Of a stretch of 33,533 nucleotides of DNA, positions 9,066-29,596 are shown in pieces. The translations under genes were made by a program, and so were the position numbers. The notes under the pieces were generated by a model. The model saw only the letters and a list, made by a program, of their open reading frames with translations, was not told the origin of the DNA and did no database searches. The stretch comes from an uncultured Maricaulis sp. (GTDB lineage Bacteria > Pseudomonadota > Alphaproteobacteria > Caulobacterales > Maricaulaceae). The stretch's first letter is position 1. Each line of letters opens with the position of its first letter. The stretch is from NCBI RefSeq assembly GCF_905480005.1, contig NZ_CAJQOO010000123.1:1-33533 (forward strand), written 5' to 3'.

Positions 9066-9392
9066 ATGACCACGTCTACCCGCCCCGGCATCACCGAACC
9101 CGAAGCCTGCCAGACCATGCAGGATGTGCGTGCGGGCGTGGACGCGCTCGACCGCGAACTGGTCGCCCTGATCGCCGAGCGGGCGCGCTATATGGAAGCC
9201 GCCGCCCGGATCAAGCCGAGCCGCGAGGTGGTCCGCGATGAATGGCGGATCAATGATGTGATCGCCAAGGTCACTGCCGAAGCGGAAAAGCGCGGCCTGG
9301 CCGTCGAGATCGCCGAACCGGTCTGGCGCGAACTGGTCGAACGCTCGATCGCTTATGAATTCAGTGTCTGGGACAAGACGCGCGGGGACTGA
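9066..9392 (+). CDS. Small AroQ-type chorismate mutase (or PchB-like lyase)
   Basis: A 108-residue single-domain, three-helix AroQ protein. The helix-1 pattern VRAGVDALDRELVALIAERARYMEAAARIK carries the expected Arg-22, Arg-39 and Lys-50, followed by Arg-57/Asp-58 and the C-terminal helix around residues 85-100. It is predicted to convert chorismate to prephenate for Phe/Tyr synthesis. The same fold serves in isochorismate pyruvate lyases (PchB), and sequence inspection does not fully separate the two. No prephenate dehydratase domain is fused to it and no aromatic or siderophore genes are adjacent. It converges with the Hpt gene 5 bp further on. Confidence 0.85.
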   Translation: MTTSTRPGITEPEACQTMQDVRAGVDALDRELVALIAERARYMEAAARIKPSREVVRDEWRINDVIAKVTAEAEKRGLAVEIAEPVWRELVERSIAYEFSVWDKTRGD

Positions 9393-14700: not shown

Positions 14701-14780
14701 TGAACTCTCCCAGGTGACATCACCGATTGGCGGTTTTGTCGATGCTCAGACAATCCGCCCGAATCGCTAAAGTCAGGGTT

Positions 14781-17640: not shown

Positions 17641-18153
17641 ATGAGTTGGGATGGTGTCATGCGGCAGGGCGAATTAATCAGGAATGATGCGGTAGCGACC
17701 GGCTTGCTGTTGCTCGCCAGCGTTCTGCTGATACCCGGCCTGATACTCCCGGCGCTGGAAACGAGGCATCTTGGGCTGTGGGACGAGCACCACTCCATCC
17801 TCTCATTGGGCCGCTCGCTGCTAGTCGACGAAGAATGGTTTCTCGCCCTTGTTGTCCTGACCTTCTCGATTGCCGTGCCGCTCGCCAAGCTGAGTTGGAT
17901 GTGGAGGCTGCAGTTTGCGCCACCGCCATCGGGCGTGAACCATCACGAGAGCGCGATAGGCTGGCTCCAGAAACTGGGCAAATGGTCCATGGCGGACGTG
18001 CTGGTGATCGCGCTCGTCGTATTCAGCCTGCGCGATAGTCTCCTGCTGCAGGCACGCCCGCTGATCGGCGCCTATTGCTTTGCGGTCTCCACCATCCTGG
18101 CGATGCTCGCCGCCGGGCGGATTGCGTCGAACTACCGGCGCCAGGCGGCCTGA
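17641..18153 (+). CDS. PqiA-like four-TM membrane protein
   Basis: This 170-residue protein has four predicted membrane helices (about residues 20-43, 66-86, 115-135 and 140-160) and the PqiA/LetA signature segment LGKWSMADVLVIALVVFSL. Canonical PqiA has two such domains plus zinc-binding cysteines. This protein is a single domain without CxxC pairs. PqiA proteins work with MCE proteins (PqiB/LetB) in lipid transport between the membranes. The MCE operon here is 7 kb away at 24760-28267 and a link is only a guess. The ATG at 17641 has no clear ribosome site. The ATG at 17659, after GGGATGG, is the alternative. A 10-bp-arm inverted repeat lies immediately upstream. Confidence 0.75.
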   Translation: MSWDGVMRQGELIRNDAVATGLLLLASVLLIPGLILPALETRHLGLWDEHHSILSLGRSLLVDEEWFLALVVLTFSIAVPLAKLSWMWRLQFAPPPSGVNHHESAIGWLQKLGKWSMADVLVIALVVFSLRDSLLLQARPLIGAYCFAVSTILAMLAAGRIASNYRRQAA

Positions 18154-20931: not shown

Positions 20932-22101
20932 CTAGCGCCTCAGCCGCGCGAAACCCCGATTGGCCAAACCGTCCAGCAACCATTCCACCGGCCCGGACCG
21001 CAAATACCGATCCGTGAGCCAGACCGCGCCCGCCTGGACGCCGGTCAGAACCACGCCGAGCGCGAAGAGCGCGGCAGGGTCCAGTCGTCCGAACAGGGCC
21101 AGGCCGGGCACTCCGGAAAACAGGAGGGTCAGAACTATGATCTGGCCGACATGGACGCTCAGCCAGAGATGCCCGGCCCGGATGAAGAGGAGCTGGACCG
21201 GTTCGGCAATACGGAAGCGGATGGCTAGCACGACAAGAGCGGCATAGCCATAAGCCAGCAGCAAGGCTGCAAAGGCACGCGCCATCAACCCTTCCCAGGC
21301 CTGCGAAGGTGCGAAGGCGACACTCATGGCCTGCACCGCACTCCAGCCGCTCAGCGGCAGCCCAATCCCGAGCGCGATGGCTGCACTGGTCACCAGGGGC
21401 ATGACCGGCCAGCGTCCGCCCCAGAATCCCCGCTCCACAAGTTCCATGCCCAACAGGATCAGCCCCAGCACGCCGCCACCGAGAAAGAAGAACTCGACCA
21501 GATGGAATTGCAGCGCCGTCGCCATATTGTGCGGCAGATGGGACCAGAAGCCGGACTGGTGCGCCGCCTCGATCGCGGCAATTCGGGCGTCATCCAGACC
21601 CAGAAGATCGGGCAATCCCATCGTGTCAGGCAAGAGCGCGGTAATACCGATCCCCGCAAGAACGATCAGGACTGTGCCGCCAATCAGCGCCACCAGCGAT
21701 ACCCAGCGCGTTACCGGCGGCAAGGCCCTCATCGGCAGGGCAATCATCGCGGCAAGGGCCATCACTGTCAGCAGCTCGCCATGCCAGAAGAGATAGGCCA
21801 GGCCGAGCCCCAGCAGGCACAGCCAACCCAGGCCCGGCTTGTCCCCGCTGCCCTCGCGCAGGGCGAGCGCCGATCCGAACAGGACAATCAGGAGGATATT
21901 GAAAACCCAGGCGACAAAGGTCTGGCCGGCCCACCAGGCAAGGCTGTCCAACGGGCCGGGTATCTCGGTCTGCAGCGGCAGAAGATCGGCCGCCGCCCAG
22001 ACATGGGCAAAGCCCGGCAGGTTTGCGAAGAGCAGGCCAAACACCGTCACGCCCAGCATGATCAGGATGCCGGCCTCTTCCCCTTCATCGCCTGCGTCCA
22101 T
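20932..22101 (-). CDS. DUF418-type polytopic membrane protein
   Basis: The 389-residue protein has about ten hydrophobic segments. The C-terminal 150 residues form a DUF418 domain: LLAYGYAALVVLAIRF, AGHLWLSVHVGQIIVLTLLF and the closing RSGPVEWLLDGL, which matches the family's GP-x-EW signature. DUF418 proteins (YeiB-like) are inner-membrane proteins with distant similarity to acyltransferase-3 membrane domains, and their substrates are unknown. The N-terminus lacks the usual LDxLRG opening, so it is slightly divergent or the true start differs. A small hairpin repeat lies 34 bp before the start (22135-22150). Confidence 0.82.
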   Translation of the reverse strand: MDAGDEGEEAGILIMLGVTVFGLLFANLPGFAHVWAAADLLPLQTEIPGPLDSLAWWAGQTFVAWVFNILLIVLFGSALALREGSGDKPGLGWLCLLGLGLAYLFWHGELLTVMALAAMIALPMRALPPVTRWVSLVALIGGTVLIVLAGIGITALLPDTMGLPDLLGLDDARIAAIEAAHQSGFWSHLPHNMATALQFHLVEFFFLGGGVLGLILLGMELVERGFWGGRWPVMPLVTSAAIALGIGLPLSGWSAVQAMSVAFAPSQAWEGLMARAFAALLLAYGYAALVVLAIRFRIAEPVQLLFIRAGHLWLSVHVGQIIVLTLLFSGVPGLALFGRLDPAALFALGVVLTGVQAGAVWLTDRYLRSGPVEWLLDGLANRGFARLRR

Positions 22102-22566: not shown

Positions 22567-22731
22567 ATAGATTATCTGTGTGCCTCGCGCGCATCTCCCC
22601 CTATTCTCTGCCATATTGAGCCCAACCGGCACGCCCGCGCGCGCGGACGGGCCGTACACGGAATACAGCCAGCCAGGCCCGAAATGACCGAGACCAGACA
22701 AGACCACACGATCGAACTCGCGGAGATGACC

Positions 22732-24729
22732 ATGTCCGACGAGGACAACCCGTCACCGGTAGCGCCGACAGGCGGCCAGGCGCTGACAGCGCCCGCCAAT
22801 CAGGACGCACCGGGATCCGACGCCCCGCCGCGTGGCGGTAACTGGCTCGTCTGGCTGGGCAATAGCTTCGCGCTTTGCTGGGTCGGTGGAGCCAGTGCCT
22901 ATCTGTGGGCCTATCTGGGGATCCAGTCCTTCGAGGCTCTGGGTCGGTACAGCTTCGGCCAGCTGACGGGTCTGTCGGTCTTCGCGCTCCTGCCCGCCCT
23001 GATCTTCATCATCGCCGGCATGATGGCGCGCGAAATCGTCCGGAGCTCTGCCAATACGCGCCGGGTCGAACTGGCCATCCGCAAGCTGGCCGAGCCGGCG
23101 CAATATGCCCGGCACGAAGTGCAGACACTGTCCGCCGCCGTGTCCGGCGAGGTCGAGCGGATCAATTCGGCGCTGGAAAGCGCGCTCGCCCGCCTGGCGG
23201 CGATGGAAGAAGTGATCAGTCATCACGCCGAGTCCCTTGAACAGTCCGCCACTGATGCCCGCGACCGCACCGAAAGCCTGCTCAAGGGTTTGCGCTCGGA
23301 ACGCCTGCGTCTGGGTGAGGTTTCGGAATCGCTGGACGACAAGGCCGCACTGATCGCCGCCGCCATATCGGATCAGTCGAAAATGGTCGCGGCGGCCGCA
23401 GAACTGGCTGCCAGCCAGGCCTCCGACAGCGAGAAGCGGATACGCGCCAGTGTCGACGATCTCAATGAGGCCGGCAGCGCCGTCACCGAACGCAGCGACG
23501 CCGCGGCCCTCGTCATCTCCGAACGCAGCGGCCATTTGCGCGAATTGTCGGATGGCCTCAAGGAGCGCTCGGAAAATCTCGACGCCGCTTATGTGAAGCA
23601 TCGCCAGCGTCTGGCCGATGCCGGTGAGGCCCTGCGTCAGGAGCAGGAGAAGATCGCCGCCGCACTCGACTTCCACAAGGCCGAGCTGGAAGTCATGGCC
23701 TCGACCGCCCGGGATGGTGCCGACGCGCTGAATTCCGCTGCCTCCAACGGCGCTGTCGCTTTCCGCGAAGCCGTGGAAACCGCGATCGAGCGGGCTGACG
23801 GGATGGCGGGCCGGGTCCGCGCCGAGACCGAAAGCGCGGCGCAGGAACATGAATCCGCCCTCGCCCGCCTGATCGCCTCAGCCCAGGAGGCCAAATCCGT
23901 CTCCGAAGCCGCGATTGATGCGATCGAAGCCCAGGCCGACATCGTCGCCAGCAAGGTCGAACAGACCAATGAGGCGGCCTATGAAGCGGCACGCCGCTCC
24001 GACGAAGCCTTCGAGCTGCGCCTGGCGGAAGCCGACAAGCTGACCAAGCGCGCCTCCGTCGCGGCCGATGAGGCCGCTGATTCCGTGCGCAAGCGGCTCG
24101 AGAGCGTCCTTGCCGCGGCGCGCTCTGAAACCCAGACGGTCGAGCGTCATCTCGACGCCATGACCGAACGCCTGTCAGAAATGCCCGGCATGGCGCGCGA
24201 CCGGGCCCAGGAAGCGGCCGACACGCTGCGCCGTGGCCTGGAGGGTCTGAATGCTGCGGCGATGGCGGCGGCTGAAGAGGCCCAGGAGATTGATGCCGCC
24301 TTCCAGGCCCGCATCCGCCAGAATTACGAATTGCTCTCGGACTTCATGTTGCGCATGGGTTCGGTTGCCGGCGGTCGGCGCGCGCCGGAGCTGGCGAGCA
24401 ATGAACTGCCCGACCCGCTGGCCGGCCGCAAGCCGCGGCGCACGGCCACGCCAAGCGATGACGGGGCATCGGCTGAGTCGGAAACCGAAACAGGGTCGGA
24501 TGACGATATGACGCGACCGCTCGGACACTCCGAAGCGTCGACCCAGCCACGGGCGGAAAATGCTGTTGGCTTCCCGGAGCGAGGCGGACGACGTCCCGGC
24601 GGTTCCGGCAGCGAGCCGGGCTGGCGCTGGAAGGATCTGCTCTCATCCATGCCGGATGACGAGGACGCCCCCGCCCCCCGGCGCGGCAACCGCACCGGCA
24701 AGACGGACCCGGACTCGAACGACAGCTAG
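22732..24729 (+). CDS. Membrane-anchored long coiled-coil protein, TipN-like
   Basis: The ATG at 22732 is preferred (GCGGAG ending 6 nt before it). An ATG at 22684 is the alternative. The 665-residue protein has a Pro-rich cytoplasmic start, two membrane helices at about 38-63 and 78-98, then some 430 residues of Ala/Glu/Arg-rich coiled coil with repeated KxxxxSEAxxAAIDA-type heptads. It ends in an acidic/Pro-rich low-complexity tail and a conserved-looking WRWKDLLSSMPDDED motif. This matches the layout of TipN, the Caulobacter birth-scar protein that orients the polarity axis and flagellum placement. Caulobacter TipN is longer, and I identify it by architecture more than residue identity. 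Alternatives are a chemoreceptor-like or RmuC-like coiled coil, but it has neither a signalling hairpin nor a nuclease domain. Confidence 0.55.
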   Translation: MSDEDNPSPVAPTGGQALTAPANQDAPGSDAPPRGGNWLVWLGNSFALCWVGGASAYLWAYLGIQSFEALGRYSFGQLTGLSVFALLPALIFIIAGMMAREIVRSSANTRRVELAIRKLAEPAQYARHEVQTLSAAVSGEVERINSALESALARLAAMEEVISHHAESLEQSATDARDRTESLLKGLRSERLRLGEVSESLDDKAALIAAAISDQSKMVAAAAELAASQASDSEKRIRASVDDLNEAGSAVTERSDAAALVISERSGHLRELSDGLKERSENLDAAYVKHRQRLADAGEALRQEQEKIAAALDFHKAELEVMASTARDGADALNSAASNGAVAFREAVETAIERADGMAGRVRAETESAAQEHESALARLIASAQEAKSVSEAAIDAIEAQADIVASKVEQTNEAAYEAARRSDEAFELRLAEADKLTKRASVAADEAADSVRKRLESVLAAARSETQTVERHLDAMTERLSEMPGMARDRAQEAADTLRRGLEGLNAAAMAAAEEAQEIDAAFQARIRQNYELLSDFMLRMGSVAGGRRAPELASNELPDPLAGRKPRRTATPSDDGASAESETETGSDDDMTRPLGHSEASTQPRAENAVGFPERGGRRPGGSGSEPGWRWKDLLSSMPDDEDAPAPRRGNRTGKTDPDSNDS

Positions 24730-24759: not shown

Positions 24760-25389
24760 CTAGTTGTCCGCGGCATGCGTGCGACTGGCGGTCCAGTCAG
24801 CAATCTCGCGACTGGCCTCGCGCGAAGCCTGGTCGAAGGCCGCGACAATGGCCGTGGTCCGGTTGGCGCTGGCACGCACTTGCGAGGTCACCACACGGGC
24901 ACCGGCAAATCGGCGACCACTCTCCGCGACCAGGCGGGCGGAAAGCCGCACCCGAACGATCGGCGCCGCGTCTTCGCCGCGATCATAGACAGCCTCGAAT
25001 TCCTGCATATCAACACGCAGCTCGTAATCGGCCCGAACCCCGTCATCCGCGCGCGTCGGGGCCAGTCCGGACTGACGCGCATTGAAGGTGTCGATCACCA
25101 GGCTCTGAAGCAGCCGCGGTGCCGGAGAAATCCAGCGTGCGCCATGGATATAGGCGAGGCTCGACCCGTCCCGGATGATGGCGATCTGGTCGCCGGACAG
25201 CCCGCGCGGGGCGTTCGGTGTATCGATCTCGATTATGGTCCAGTTCTCACCGGCCAGCTCGGCCGGCTCCGGCGATGACAGGCGATAGACGGAGACCGGT
25301 TCGGCTTCCGGCAGCAAGGAAACGCAGGCGGAGACCGACAGGGCGCTCAGCCCGACAAGGGCGGCCCGGATGTAATGCGATCCGCTCAT
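24760..25389 (-). CDS. PqiC/ABC_trans_aux-family lipoprotein of the lipid transport operon
   Basis: A 209-residue lipoprotein (lipobox SVSAC, lipid Cys-22) of the ABC-type transport auxiliary family, related to PqiC. Family marks are VYRLSSPEP near residue 35, IEIDTPNAPRGLSGDQIAII, then SLAYIHGARWISPAPRLLQS, and RADYELRVDMQEFEAVYD. Its start overlaps the mlaD stop by 4 bp (ATGA), showing translational coupling. It is predicted to sit in the outer membrane facing the periplasm and to cap or dock the MCE channel. It occupies the place that the soluble shuttle MlaC has in the E. coli mla operon. It is the last gene of the operon. No terminator is visible in the 30 bp before the convergent coiled-coil gene. 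Confidence 0.88.
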   Translation of the reverse strand: MSGSHYIRAALVGLSALSVSACVSLLPEAEPVSVYRLSSPEPAELAGENWTIIEIDTPNAPRGLSGDQIAIIRDGSSLAYIHGARWISPAPRLLQSLVIDTFNARQSGLAPTRADDGVRADYELRVDMQEFEAVYDRGEDAAPIVRVRLSARLVAESGRRFAGARVVTSQVRASANRTTAIVAAFDQASREASREIADWTASRTHAADN

Positions 25390-26336
25390 TGCGGCACCTC
25401 CACGGTTTCACGGGGCGCTCCGGCGATGAAGCTCCCGGGATTGCTTTCAACCTCGGACGTGATCCGCTCGAGCGAGGCCACAACGCGCCGCAGGTCTGAG
25501 AGAGTCCGGTTGAGATCCTCGATCCCGCTATCGGCCAGGCTTTCCAGCGCCGGGTGCAGGGTGAGAACAATCTGGTTGGTATCGGCGGCGGCCTGGTTCA
25601 CGGCCATGGCCGCGAGGGTGGTCTCATTGGTCGCCAGCGTCATTTCATTATTGAGGAAGGCTTCCGCCGTCACGCCGAAGCGTTGCAGCGAGATCGCCGC
25701 TTCATTCATGCCCTGGGCCGCCGTGTCGATGCTGGCGAGCGTATTGCGCATGTCGGTGATCAGCGCCTCCTCCTCGGAGAGCCGGTCGGTGATCTCGCGC
25801 AGATTGGTCAGCGTCGCCGAGACCTCGTCCACATTCTGCTCCGACAGGAGGGCCGACAGGCGGAACAACGCCGTTTGCGCGGCGTCGAGCACATCCTCGG
25901 ACCCCTCGACCAGGCCTTCCAGCTGCGCCCGGCGGGCAAAGATGCGGGGCGGCGAACGATTGGCCGGGCTTTCCAGGCGCTGGGCTTCCGGCGTGCCGCC
26001 GGTAATCAGGACATAGGACAGGCCGGTCAGTCCCTGCGGCTCCAGCTGGGCTTCACTGTTCACGCGGACCGGCGTCTGCGCCAGCACGCGGATACGCGCG
26101 ATCACCCGGCTTTGATCATCGAGTTCCAGATCCGTGACTTCCCCCACCTGGATGCCGTTGAAGCGCACTTCGCCGCTTTCGCGCAGACCGCGTACGGGCC
26201 CGTCGAAAACGATGTCATAGAAGGCATACTCCTCGTCAAAGGAGACCTTGCCGAGCCAGAGGGCGAAGAAGCCACCGGCCGCCAGCAGGAGGACGGCGAA
26301 CAAGCCGACCAGGGCGTGATGGGCTTTGGTTTCCAT
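25386..26336 (-). CDS. mlaD: MlaD-family MCE protein of the lipid transporter
   Basis: A 316-residue MCE protein: short cytoplasmic start, one membrane helix (about residues 8-28), the MCE domain (about 38-118, with FDGPVRGLRESGEVRFNGIQ and GEVTDLELD, and GLTGLSYVLITGG at the pore-loop region) and a 190-residue helical/coiled-coil C-terminus rich in Leu, Asn and Glu. E. coli MlaD is about 183 residues, so this one has a long extension, as in MCE proteins thought to form a tube toward the outer membrane. It should form a hexameric ring bound to MlaE in the inner membrane. The gap to mlaF is 3 bp, and it overlaps the lipoprotein gene downstream. Confidence 0.92.
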   Translation of the reverse strand: METKAHHALVGLFAVLLLAAGGFFALWLGKVSFDEEYAFYDIVFDGPVRGLRESGEVRFNGIQVGEVTDLELDDQSRVIARIRVLAQTPVRVNSEAQLEPQGLTGLSYVLITGGTPEAQRLESPANRSPPRIFARRAQLEGLVEGSEDVLDAAQTALFRLSALLSEQNVDEVSATLTNLREITDRLSEEEALITDMRNTLASIDTAAQGMNEAAISLQRFGVTAEAFLNNEMTLATNETTLAAMAVNQAAADTNQIVLTLHPALESLADSGIEDLNRTLSDLRRVVASLERITSEVESNPGSFIAGAPRETVEVPQ

Positions 26337-26339
26337 GCT

Positions 26340-27113
26340 CTAGTTCTCCTTGGCGGCCAGCGCGGCGCGCCCGCGTGGTCCGTGGAAATATTCCTTGATC
26401 CAGGGATGGGGATTCCCCAACAACTCCCTGATTGGCGCGACGGCTTCAACCCGCTTGTCGGCCAAAACCGCGACGCGGTCACAAATCGCGTAAAGACTGT
26501 CGAGATCGTGTGTGATCATGACCACAGTCAGACCCAGGGCATCAGACAATTCCCGGATCAGACTGTCGAACGCCGCCGCGCCGATCGGATCAAGGCCGGC
26601 GGTCGGTTCGTCGAGAAAGAGAATTTCAGGATCCAGCGCCAGCGCCCGCGCCAGGGCTGCGCGCTTGCGCATGCCGCCGGACAATTCAGACGGGAAGCGA
26701 TCCGCCGCGCCCGGATCAAGACCGGCCAGGCCGATCTTCATGCCGGCGATCTCCTCCATGAGCGAGATGGGCATGTCGATATGCTCACGCAGCGGCGCCA
26801 TCACGTTTTCCAGCACGGAGAGCGAGGTAAACAGGGCCCCGTTCTGGAACAACACGCCCAGCCGACTGTCGATCTGGCGACGCTCACGTGCTGACATGTC
26901 GGCCAGGCGCTGGCCGTTCAGGCGTATGTCTCCGCCCTCGGGCTGTTTGAGCCCCAAAATGGTGTTCAGCAATACCGTCTTGCCGGTACCCGATCCGCCG
27001 ACAATGCCGAGAATCTCACCGCGATGGACGTCCAGGTCGAGATGCTCGTGGACGACATGGCGCCCGAAGGCGCTGCGCAGATTGCGGACCGAGATGAGGA
27101 TGTCGTCGGTCAA
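26340..27113 (-). CDS. mlaF: MlaF-family ABC transporter ATPase
   Basis: A 257-residue ATPase with Walker A GGSGTGKT (about 39-46), Q-loop LFQNGALF (about 88-95), signature LSGGMRKR (144-151), Walker B EILFLDEP (163-170) and the switch His in THDLDS (His-202). The Q-loop and signature variants are those of the MlaF/MkL family that energises MCE lipid transport. The start is placed at TTG 27113, whose last two bases overlap the mlaE stop codon (TTGA). No ATG or GTG in frame lies nearby, and family similarity begins right there with DDILISVRNL. It works in the cytoplasm on the MlaE dimer. Confidence 0.93.
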   Translation of the reverse strand: MTDDILISVRNLRSAFGRHVVHEHLDLDVHRGEILGIVGGSGTGKTVLLNTILGLKQPEGGDIRLNGQRLADMSARERRQIDSRLGVLFQNGALFTSLSVLENVMAPLREHIDMPISLMEEIAGMKIGLAGLDPGAADRFPSELSGGMRKRAALARALALDPEILFLDEPTAGLDPIGAAAFDSLIRELSDALGLTVVMITHDLDSLYAICDRVAVLADKRVEAVAPIRELLGNPHPWIKEYFHGPRGRAALAAKEN

Positions 27114-28267
27114 ATCCCCAACTCCAGATACATCATCGCAAACAGGGCCTCGAGCACGATGATGGCGAAAATCGACTGGACCACCGATGCTGTCACGCGC
27201 CGACCCAGCGACTCCACATCGCCCTGGACCTGCATGCCCTGGCGACAGCCGATAATGGCAACCACCATTCCGAATACCGGCGCCTTCGACATGCCGACCC
27301 AGAAATGGCTGATATCGATTTCGGAATGCAGGCGCGTGAAGAACAGCGCCGGCGAGATATCCTGCGCTGACCATGTCACCAGCATGCCGCCGAATATCCC
27401 GGCAACCATCGCGCCGAATGTCAGCAGCGGCGCCATGAGCACACAGGCCACAACCCGCGGCAGGACCAGCGCTTCATAGGGGTCAAGACCCAGCACACGC
27501 ATGGCATCGACTTCCTGCTGCATCTTCATCGCGCCGATCGAGGCGGTGAAGGCGCTGTCCGAGCGGGCAGCCAGCATGATCGCGGTGATCAGCACGCCGA
27601 ACTCGCGCAGGATGGAGAGGCCGACCAGGTCGACCGTAAACACCGACGCGCCGAAACTCTGCAACAAGGTTGCCCCCATGAACGCCACCACAGCGCCGAT
27701 GAAGAATGTCAGGGTCGCGACGATGGGCAATGCGTTGACGCCCACCTCTTCCATCGCCCAGACGGTCGGGGTCAGGCGAAAACGCCAGGGCTGAAGGAAG
27801 CAGGAAGCGCCGGTGGTCAGTGTCTTTCCGAAGAAGGCAAAGGTGTCGACCGCCTCGCGGTAGGCGGCTTCCAGCCCCGCGCCGATCCGGGCCAGGGCCT
27901 TGATGAAGCCGAAGGTCGGCACCTCTTCCGGTCCGCAAATCTGGGTACGCTGGCGGACTTCTTCGATCAGGCGCCGGACCGTGCGGTGCTCGCCGACAAA
28001 ATGGAAATCCGCATCCGGGGTCGGACAGCGCCGCGTTGCCCGGCCCAGCAGGTAGGCTCCCGACGTATCGACCCGGCCAAGATGCCTGACATCAACAATG
28101 ATATTGCAGGGGTCGGCCGCATTCTCGACCGCACGGATCGCACTGTCATGACGGCCGATCGTGTCTACGACCCAATCGCCATGCGGTTCCAGGATCGTGC
28201 GCTCGCCCTCCTCGCGCACAACCAGTTCCGCCCTCGGCGATGATTCGTCCCGCATTCCCCTCATCAT
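27110..28267 (-). CDS. mlaE: MlaE-family permease with N-terminal STAS domain
   Basis: The 385-residue protein fuses a STAS domain (about residues 15-115; ILEPHGDWVVDTIGRH and the strand-helix NIIVDVRHLGRVDTSGAYLL) to a MlaE permease (about 130-385; VGLSILREFGVLITAIMLAA, then RSDSAFTASIGAMKMQQEVD and LGLDPYEALVLPRVVA, which are signature segments). In E. coli the STAS part is the separate protein MlaB, which binds and stabilises MlaF. Here it is covalently attached. The ATG at 28267 has AGGA 6 nt upstream. It lies 7 bp after the MFS gene and overlaps mlaF. The permease forms the inner-membrane core that passes phospholipid to or from the MCE ring. Confidence 0.93.
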   Translation of the reverse strand: MMRGMRDESSPRAELVVREEGERTILEPHGDWVVDTIGRHDSAIRAVENAADPCNIIVDVRHLGRVDTSGAYLLGRATRRCPTPDADFHFVGEHRTVRRLIEEVRQRTQICGPEEVPTFGFIKALARIGAGLEAAYREAVDTFAFFGKTLTTGASCFLQPWRFRLTPTVWAMEEVGVNALPIVATLTFFIGAVVAFMGATLLQSFGASVFTVDLVGLSILREFGVLITAIMLAARSDSAFTASIGAMKMQQEVDAMRVLGLDPYEALVLPRVVACVLMAPLLTFGAMVAGIFGGMLVTWSAQDISPALFFTRLHSEIDISHFWVGMSKAPVFGMVVAIIGCRQGMQVQGDVESLGRRVTASVVQSIFAIIVLEALFAMMYLELGI

Positions 28268-28274
28268 GCAAATC

Positions 28275-29450
28275 CTAGTCGATATTTTCCCGGCGCGGGA
28301 GTGAAGAAACGCGATGCAATCCGAACGCCGCCACCAGGCCCAACAAGCCCGGCACCATCATGAAAGCAAATCCCCCCACTCCGAATGAAGCAAAGGCATA
28401 GCCTGACAGGGTCGACATCGCTGCCAGTATGATGCCACCGGACAAGGCTGAATTGAGGCCTTGTGACAGGGCCGTTTGATCGTCGGGCATATCGCGGGCG
28501 GTAAATCGCAGAAACCCGACATAGGTGGCGGCGAAGGTCAGCGCATGCAAGGCCTGCAGGGGAAACAGCGCCCAGACAGGCGGGGACAGCGCAGTCAGCC
28601 CCCAGCGAACCAGCGAGGCCAGCCCGCCCAACATCATCAGGTGAGCCGGGCTGAGACGCCCGAGCCAGCCCCGCCCGGACAGCCAGAGGAAGGCGATCTC
28701 GAACGCCACGGCGGAGGCCCAGAGCGTGCCGACCATGGCCCCGCTGATACCCTGCTGGGTCCAGGCATTGGCCGAGACGACATAGTAGAAGGCATGTCCC
28801 GACTGGATCAGGGCCGAGGCGGCCAGGGCGAGCCCCAGCGGGCCGGCCAGGCGACGACGCAATTCCTTCCACTCGTCGGGGCGCGGGACATGAGCGGTCG
28901 GCCGGTGCCCCGGCGGCAGCCAGGCCGCGGCCAGCGCCATCAGCCCGCCGGCAATGATCACCCAAGCCAGCACGCTCTCGGTGCCGGTGCGGTCAATCAG
29001 CGCGCCGGCGGTGAAATTGGCGACGATAAAGAGCGCCGAGCCGAAGGCGCGCACCGGGCCGAATTCGAAGGCATGGTCGCGGGCGGCGCGGATTGCGAAC
29101 GCGTCGGTCACCGGGATCTGGCCGAATACCAGCGCGCCGGCCGCGAAGGAGAGCACGACCAGGAGCCAGGGCGAGTCGACCGGGATATGCAGCGCGAAGA
29201 CGACCACGCTCCCGATGGCGAAAGCGAGAATGGGATCCCGATGACGCACGGCGCGGTCAGCCCAGCGCGCGCCGATCGGCGAGACCAGGGTCCGCCCGAT
29301 CATCCCCGCAGCGAGGATCCAGCCAATCCATTCCGGCGACAGGCCACGCCCGTCCAGCCAGCGCGGGAAATAGGGCAGGAAAGCCCCGAACATGAGGTAG
29401 AAGGCGCCATAATATGTGGCGAAGCGCAGGGCTGTGGGTTTGACCATCAT
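28275..29450 (-). CDS. MFS transporter (MFS_1-like, HcaT/PPP type)
   Basis: A 391-residue, 12-helix major facilitator. It resembles the 3-phenylpropionate transporter-like branch: an N-terminal YYGAFYLMFGAFLPYFPRWL, the loop-2/3 motif GARWADRAVRHRD, VRAFGSALFIVANFTAG and, in the second half, GLNSALSGGIILAAMSTLSG. The start at 29450 (or 29447) follows AGGAAG. Aromatic acids, sugars and nucleosides are transported by relatives, so the substrate is open. It ends 7 bp before mlaE and so may be the first gene of the lipid-transport operon, an unusual partner. Its promoter would have to lie in the divergent 29451-29596 stretch. Confidence 0.88.
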   Translation of the reverse strand: MMVKPTALRFATYYGAFYLMFGAFLPYFPRWLDGRGLSPEWIGWILAAGMIGRTLVSPIGARWADRAVRHRDPILAFAIGSVVVFALHIPVDSPWLLVVLSFAAGALVFGQIPVTDAFAIRAARDHAFEFGPVRAFGSALFIVANFTAGALIDRTGTESVLAWVIIAGGLMALAAAWLPPGHRPTAHVPRPDEWKELRRRLAGPLGLALAASALIQSGHAFYYVVSANAWTQQGISGAMVGTLWASAVAFEIAFLWLSGRGWLGRLSPAHLMMLGGLASLVRWGLTALSPPVWALFPLQALHALTFAATYVGFLRFTARDMPDDQTALSQGLNSALSGGIILAAMSTLSGYAFASFGVGGFAFMMVPGLLGLVAAFGLHRVSSLPRRENID

Positions 29451-29596
29451 GACTTCCTGATCGTGCGCTTCGCTGCAGCGCCGCATTTCCCGGCTAGAGC
29501 GGCTTGGCGAACAATGTTCACTTCTATAGGTTCGCGTTTCAATTGCCACCGCCGGAATCACGCCTCATGGACGGACATAACCTTGTTTCCGCAGGG

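Follow-up and report, generated by a model that had tools for sequence, protein, structure and literature searches.

The window, a 33,533-nucleotide stretch of DNA from an uncultured Maricaulis sp. that was analysed at its full length, carries a tipN-like gene on its forward strand (22684..24729), an open reading frame of 681 amino acids. The initial annotation had placed this frame at 22732–24729. Its end is retained, but its start is an internal ATG; we prefer the ATG at 22684, 16 codons upstream, because the 16 intervening residues are conserved in close relatives (identical in L002 and similar in L003 and L006). Residue numbers of the window protein count from this ATG.

Residues 54–185 (22843..23238), identified by matches to class-wide profiles, form an N-terminal membrane module comprising two transmembrane helices and the start of a coil. 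Both of the N-terminal helices proposed initially were recovered: helix 2 (residues 97–115) has a mean hydropathy of 2.46, and helix 1 (residues 62–80) is weak, its value of 1.38 falling below the transmembrane cut-off of 1.6 in the window species and above it in some relatives. The long Ala/Glu-rich helical region, also part of the initial annotation, spans residues 139–563 (23098..24372), as judged from composition and a low-confidence AF2 model. Residues 125–560 include 97 Ala and 55 Glu, residues 139–500 are free of proline, and the model (mean pLDDT 56) predicts helices at residues 54–80, 91–264, 271–385, 389–497, and 502–563. A predicted helical coil makes up most of the protein, helicity being assigned from the sequence and the low-confidence model and not from a coiled-coil score. 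At the end of the coil lies a conserved stretch, QARIRQNYELLS (residues 541–552; 24304..24339), found by alignment, for which a strict pattern is present in 19 of the 24 members of the clade discussed below. The tail (residues 564–681), with pLDDT mostly below 50 in the AF2 model, had been described as acidic and ending in WRWKDLL; it contains acidic as well as basic patches, and alignment and pattern search place the motif at residues 647–653 (24622..24642), 28 residues ahead of the C-terminus. The domain that comes next in Caulobacter is absent. Pfam assigned no family to the window protein at E 0.1, and NCBIfam returned a single match, attributed to chance, at 0.055. A search for CtrA-like sites showed none close to the tipN-like gene; the one in the window, at 14768, is at chance level.

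Convergent to the tipN-like gene, on the reverse strand, lie genes for an MCE/Mla-type lipid ABC transporter (24760..28267; auxiliary lipoprotein, MlaD-like protein, ATPase, and MlaE permease), and beyond them an MFS transporter gene (28275..29561, reverse strand), both assigned by Pfam, NCBIfam, and locus comparison. The MCE/Mla-type set looks complete, and a PqiA-like gene is located nearby at 17641–18153. Upstream of tipN, on the opposite strand, is a gene for a DUF418 membrane protein (20932–22101), and locus comparison identified a chorismate mutase type II gene on the forward strand (9066..9392). The four MCE genes are also convergent to tipN in L129, a locus from another family; an MFS homologue lies upstream of tipN in all five Caulobacteraceae loci compared (L127, L128, L130, L134, and L154), and a chorismate mutase homologue adjoins the tipN-like gene in all five Hyphomonas-type loci compared. 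Synteny, which had been suggested as a check on the initial annotation, is partial: single neighbours are held in common with other tipN loci, their order and distance differ, and they form islands and no conserved block.

Reciprocal searches and conservation

When C. vibrioides TipN was searched against the genome of the window (3.07 Mb in 189 contigs, 94% complete), a single match at E up to 1 was obtained, which is the window locus (E 4.8e-37). The window protein in turn found one match at E up to 1 in the C. vibrioides genome, namely TipN (E 7.9e-35). The proposal of a TipN-like protein is borne out by this reciprocal best hit, and the assembly, as far as its 94% completeness reaches, yielded no other protein that could be the true TipN orthologue. 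Our Caulobacter reference (locus L130) comes from a record that bears the name C. vibrioides DSM 9893, and its protein has 882 amino acids counted from its ATG. Its species, length, and build, and its presence as a single copy, are the grounds for taking it as TipN; a locus tag is not among them. The tags of Caulobacter tipN are, we presume, CC1485 and CCNA_01552, neither of which was found mentioned in the literature searched for tipN. A length of 882 amino acids has also been published for TipN (PMC13170164), and a review describes a large coiled coil after two transmembrane segments at the N-terminus (PMC9178275). Transmembrane segments and a long coil are likewise present in the window protein, with a weak first segment and a low-confidence model.

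Sequence identity between the window protein and Caulobacter TipN is only 26–28%, and an alignment of 19 diverse rows has twelve invariant columns, the start methionine among them. Outside the coil, the two proteins share the transmembrane region, Q-x-R-x-R-x-N-Y at the coil end, and the W-x-W motif. Comparison of the membrane-module profiles of the Maricaulis family and the Caulobacteraceae gave 97.8% over 132 columns. Against the Caulobacteraceae profile, the window N-terminus scored 30.9 bits, and the best of 1,956 scored shuffles reached 9.4 bits.

Within the genus of the window, 18 of 19 genomes contain a match, the exception (G007) being 69% complete, and the window protein is 87% identical to that of G015. 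Matches were found in 57 of 61 relatives, mostly at one place per genome; three of the four relatives without a match to the window protein belong to genus g27 of family f5 (G048, G056, and G060) and are 99% complete. Retention at this frequency indicates that the motif and the protein are more than chance. A TipN profile matches 130 of the 137 genomes in the window's family. Matches are present in 99 of 105 genomes of family f2, which is taken as the Hyphomonas family. With a Caulobacteraceae protein as the query, the figures are 132 of 149 for family f3 and 73 of 75 for genus g28, whose protein a scan of named genomes located in C. vibrioides DSM 9893. In g48, a Caulobacteraceae-like genus of family f3, 14 of 16 genomes, several of them more than 95% complete, have no TipN match at E 0.001, reflecting either a real loss or strong divergence. 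The W-x-W pattern is absent from 3 of 25 Caulobacteraceae rows and from all 32 Hyphomonas-type rows.

Taken at the level of sequence, these results support the window gene as the single-copy TipN orthologue of its genome. The same genome carries PopZ. It also encodes an EAL protein that pairs, as best match in both directions, with a transmembrane EAL protein of C. vibrioides (46–48% over 321–345 amino acids); we take this pair to be TipF.

The C-terminal domain and its distribution

In Caulobacter TipN, a helical domain of about 115 residues directly follows the W motif. The initial annotation had seen the TipN layout reproduced in the window protein, down to a terminal motif. Membrane module, coil, and W motif are indeed all in place, but one C-terminal domain is missing, and the motif is not terminal in Caulobacter TipN, where a folded domain comes after it. 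The AF2 model of this domain has a mean pLDDT of 87, with block means of 90 to 98 from residue 31 on. Pfam and NCBIfam assign no family to C. vibrioides TipN, and the best match in a sequence search of the PDB was Syntaxin-1A, at E 0.73. With the domain model as the query, Foldseek against the PDB gave a best E of 2.4, and VIA-align gave Z values of at most 3.4 over 114 chains, which does not establish a new fold.

The distribution of the domain was mapped with a profile, A3, whose rows come from Caulobacterales only; matches with E at most 2.9e-8 were counted as strong. Strong matches are present in 76 of the 137 genomes of the window's family, and weak ones (E 0.002 to 0.095), several of which cover the W motif alone, in 21 more. 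None of the 52 genomes of genera g1 (that of the window), g5, g8, g10, g13, g14, and g15 has a strong match. The remaining genera of the family account for 76 strong matches in 85 genomes, and six of the nine exceptions are also without a TipN match. A frameshifted or separately encoded C-terminal domain was rejected: A3 matched nothing in the genome assembly, and translation of the window in all six frames yielded the motif only.

A tree built from the remainder of the protein (35 rows) places 24 domain-less proteins covering the seven genera on one side of a branch with support of 100/99; it includes only three same-family rows with the domain, two of which are long branches that join each other. 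Sister genera of the domain-less clade possess the domain, and the C-terminal profiles of Caulobacteraceae and Hyphomonas-type proteins agree at 98.4% over 138 columns. Because the proteins of both these groups have the domain, a single loss is the simplest reading: the window lineage probably lost its C-terminal domain once, while all 24 clade proteins kept W-x-W-[KR]-D-L-L. These proteins provide natural variants in which the role of the domain could be tested by swapping.

RgsE/GPR and the wider Alphaproteobacteria

The domain extends past Caulobacterales. In a sample of 289 Alphaproteobacteria, A3 matches 66 genomes, in most cases close to where a long open frame ends, and the membrane-module profile matches 107 of the 289. 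Both ends lie in one open frame in 56 of the 66 domain genomes, the frames ranging from 564 to 2,752 amino acids, and in the other 10 the membrane module is not in the same frame; for this count, one membrane-module row was taken from each of 99 genomes, either the longest or the one listed first, and weak rows were left out. Without three Caulobacterales and the genomes from which the membrane-module profile drew rows, the same-frame count is 46 of 56. Among the 107 membrane-module genomes, 62 show an A3 match and 45 show none; many lineages may thus have lost the domain or carry a version too divergent for the profile. The longest open frame listed with both family ends, of 2,743 amino acids (L333), comes from a genome of another order (G734).

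RgsE of Sinorhizobium meliloti, a homologue of Agrobacterium GPR, is reported to have 2,089 amino acids (PMC7327166). A tblastn search led to a CDS of exactly this length, annotated as a kinesin, in a record named for this species. The record (L337, CP090106.1; 3.72 Mb) is titled plasmid pSymB but, with its cytochrome bc1 genes, resembles a chromosome whose title was exchanged. With the target number set to 20,000, RgsE scored E 4.7e-5 against the Caulobacteraceae TipN C-terminal profile, 1.8e-4 against the TipN membrane-module profile, and 2.6e-6 against that of the Maricaulis family. Only true family genes among 844 control ORFs, and no reversed sequences, reached E 0.01, and shuffled copies in the RgsE test stayed at or below 13.2 bits versus 29.4 to 35.2 bits for the real sequences. 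Ahead of its C-terminal domain, RgsE carries GWMRDLL. In view of profile scores, controls, shuffles, and this motif, RgsE appears to be homologous to TipN at its N-terminal and C-terminal ends alike.

The Hyphomonas-type C-terminal profile did not find RgsE at E 0.01, and its comparison with the class set, which held one wrong frame (L328, 127 amino acids), gave no more than 88% over 79 columns. For the membrane-module comparison, five class rows were dropped, four with a cut or wrong N-terminus (L317, L319, L323, and L328) in addition to L329. Four class members form a subset to which we gave the label GPR-like; three of them (L331, L332, and L335) were tested by Pfam, and the first two match PF01442, the 2,099-residue L331 at 2.6e-41. 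The window protein, with 681 amino acids and no Pfam match, has neither the size of the RgsE/GPR type (about 2,100 amino acids) nor its PF01442 repeats, nor its C-terminal domain.

A similarity of GPR, described as an apolipoprotein, to TipN is already in print (PMC8546619, citing a 2019 paper), and the two proteins have been termed analogous (PMC13170164). Homologues of RgsE were reported from Rhizobiales, Emcibacterales, and Rhodospirillales (PMC7327166), and the word Caulobacterales does not occur in the text of that article. What appears to be new here, as not met in the portions of the literature searched, is the common domain and motif, along with the domain-less clade. This undescribed domain ties TipN to RgsE and would link new-pole marking to the growth of Rhizobiales at the new pole.

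Proposed role, alternatives, and known systems

Caulobacter TipN is found at the division plane and then stays at the new pole (PMC9178275); it acts on ParA, on flagellum placement via TipF, and on envelope stability, and it contacts Tol-Pal (PMC9178275, PMC7403779). Direct contact with PopZ was not seen in one study (PMC10127582). Cells without TipN have envelope defects (PMC7403779), and its overproduction is reported to lead to ectopic poles (PMC5347347). GPR/RgsE is located at the growing new pole and, when overproduced, causes extra poles or branches (PMC8262873, PMC7327166), and RgsE contacts the Tol-Pal system (PMC7327166). In Agrobacterium, loss of the last 10, 221, or 332 residues of GPR impairs complementation, none of these deletions removing just the C-terminal domain, and foci still form after the 10- and 332-residue deletions (PMC8262873); GPR enters our analysis from the literature alone. 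No account of the Maricaulis gene was found in the literature searched for Maricaulis together with TipN.

We read the window gene, with a probability of about 0.84, as the Maricaulis orthologue of TipN, a membrane-anchored new-pole scaffold in a lineage that lost the C-terminal domain. Its two N-terminal helices would anchor the protein in the inner membrane. By orthology, it would gather at the division site and remain at the new pole after division, where it may hold the partners of Caulobacter TipN, namely ParA, Tol-Pal, and the TipF flagellar pathway. Marking of the new pole is expected of the window protein from the behaviour of Caulobacter TipN and GPR/RgsE and from the presence of PopZ and the EAL protein in its genome. 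The domain found in Caulobacter TipN and RgsE was probably lost once, with W-x-W-K-D-L-L just ahead of it retained. As W motif, coil, and membrane module are kept despite this loss, pole marking probably needs those three, and the lost domain may have worked with a partner, or in an activity, for which this lineage has no need or has found a substitute. Counting against the main reading, identity to Caulobacter TipN is low, gene order is shared in part, the first helix is weakly hydrophobic, the Caulobacter reference was identified without a locus tag, and the search for CtrA-like sites gave none near the gene. A function of TipN could also reside in the missing domain, given the effect of C-terminal deletions on complementation by GPR, and if the domain works alike in GPR and TipN, the Maricaulis clade would have replaced or abandoned that work.

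The existence of a clade without the domain also invites a reading in which the orthologue has changed its job and, after the loss, serves mainly as a general envelope scaffold that no longer marks the new pole. The impairment of GPR by C-terminal deletions (PMC8262873), the envelope defects of Caulobacter without TipN (PMC7403779), and the lipid-transport genes adjoining the tipN-like gene would all fit; however, the gene persists in 18 of 19 genus genomes, the W motif is intact throughout the 24 clade members, and the identity to the G015 protein is 87%, which makes such a change of job unlikely. Still less probable is that the protein works more like RgsE/GPR and chiefly organizes the growth of the wall at the new pole, which it would mark only incidentally. 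The score of the Maricaulis-family membrane-module profile against RgsE (E 2.6e-6), the contact of both TipN and RgsE/GPR with Tol-Pal, and the ectopic poles reported for overproduced TipN (PMC5347347), which resemble the extra poles or branches caused by GPR/RgsE, point in this direction. The window protein, however, is a third of the size of RgsE/GPR and is without the PF01442 repeats and the domain that RgsE has. We also know of no polar growth in Maricaulis, which counts against an RgsE/GPR-like role.

Coiled coils readily match one another and the overall identity is low, so the window protein might be imagined as an unrelated two-helix coiled-coil protein whose likeness to TipN is convergent and compositional. 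Yet the membrane module, which is not coil, matches by itself, shuffles score far lower (9.4 versus 30.9 bits), the 844 control ORFs and the reversed sequences give no match at E 0.01 beyond true family genes, and both search directions return single matches; on these grounds chance coiled-coil resemblance was rejected, and convergence seems to us barely credible.

With the window gene read as a TipN orthologue, we lean slightly toward a wider interpretation, in which TipN and RgsE/GPR descend from a single ancestral family of alphaproteobacterial new-pole organizers. Its members would combine a membrane module, a coil that varies greatly in length, a motif of the W-[KR]-[DE]-[LI]-[LI] type, and a C-terminal helical domain. 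Lineages would adjust this polar machinery through the modules that they trim, with the C-terminal domain dropped in the Maricaulis clade, much of the coil dropped in Hyphomonas, and the coil lengthened in Rhizobiales. If this is true, the Maricaulis protein is a naturally truncated version from which one can learn what works without the C-terminal domain, and the Hyphomonas member is one missing pole marker of the budding bacterium. In the genome that we take to be Hyphomonas neptunium ATCC 15444 (G293), there is one strong match, L120, a protein of 664 amino acids that has the C-terminal domain as well as two transmembrane helices, and whose coil is shorter. A study of chromosome segregation in H. 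neptunium describes two known landmarks, including bactofilin and PopZ, as conserved and holds that unknown factors should mark the poles (PMC6650430). L120 is, on its sequence, a candidate for the missing marker. Together with the window protein, it would widen the range of TipN to include Hyphomonas-type bacteria and the Maricaulis family.

Compared with these known systems, the window protein is closest in build to TipN of C. vibrioides DSM 9893, with which it shares two N-terminal transmembrane segments, a long coil, Q-x-R-x-R-x-N-Y, W-x-W, and a reciprocal best hit. It is shorter, as the initial annotation had noted (681 versus 882 amino acids), mainly because the C-terminal helical domain present in Caulobacter has been lost, in our reading, and because its N-terminal extension is less long. 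The H. neptunium protein, as we take L120 to be, resembles it in the membrane module (99.7% between the profiles of the Maricaulis family and this group) and in being the single strong match of its genome, but it is trimmed differently: the C-terminal domain is kept, the coil is short, a linker is rich in Pro and Gln, and PWREII stands in place of the motif. RgsE of S. meliloti has a membrane module that is homologous by profile and the motif GWMRDLL, and it is likewise described as a new-pole scaffold in contact with Tol-Pal. In contrast to the window protein, it has 2,089 amino acids, keeps the C-terminal domain, and belongs to an order that grows at the pole; RgsE/GPR is, moreover, reported to be absent from the septum (PMC7327166), to which TipN goes.
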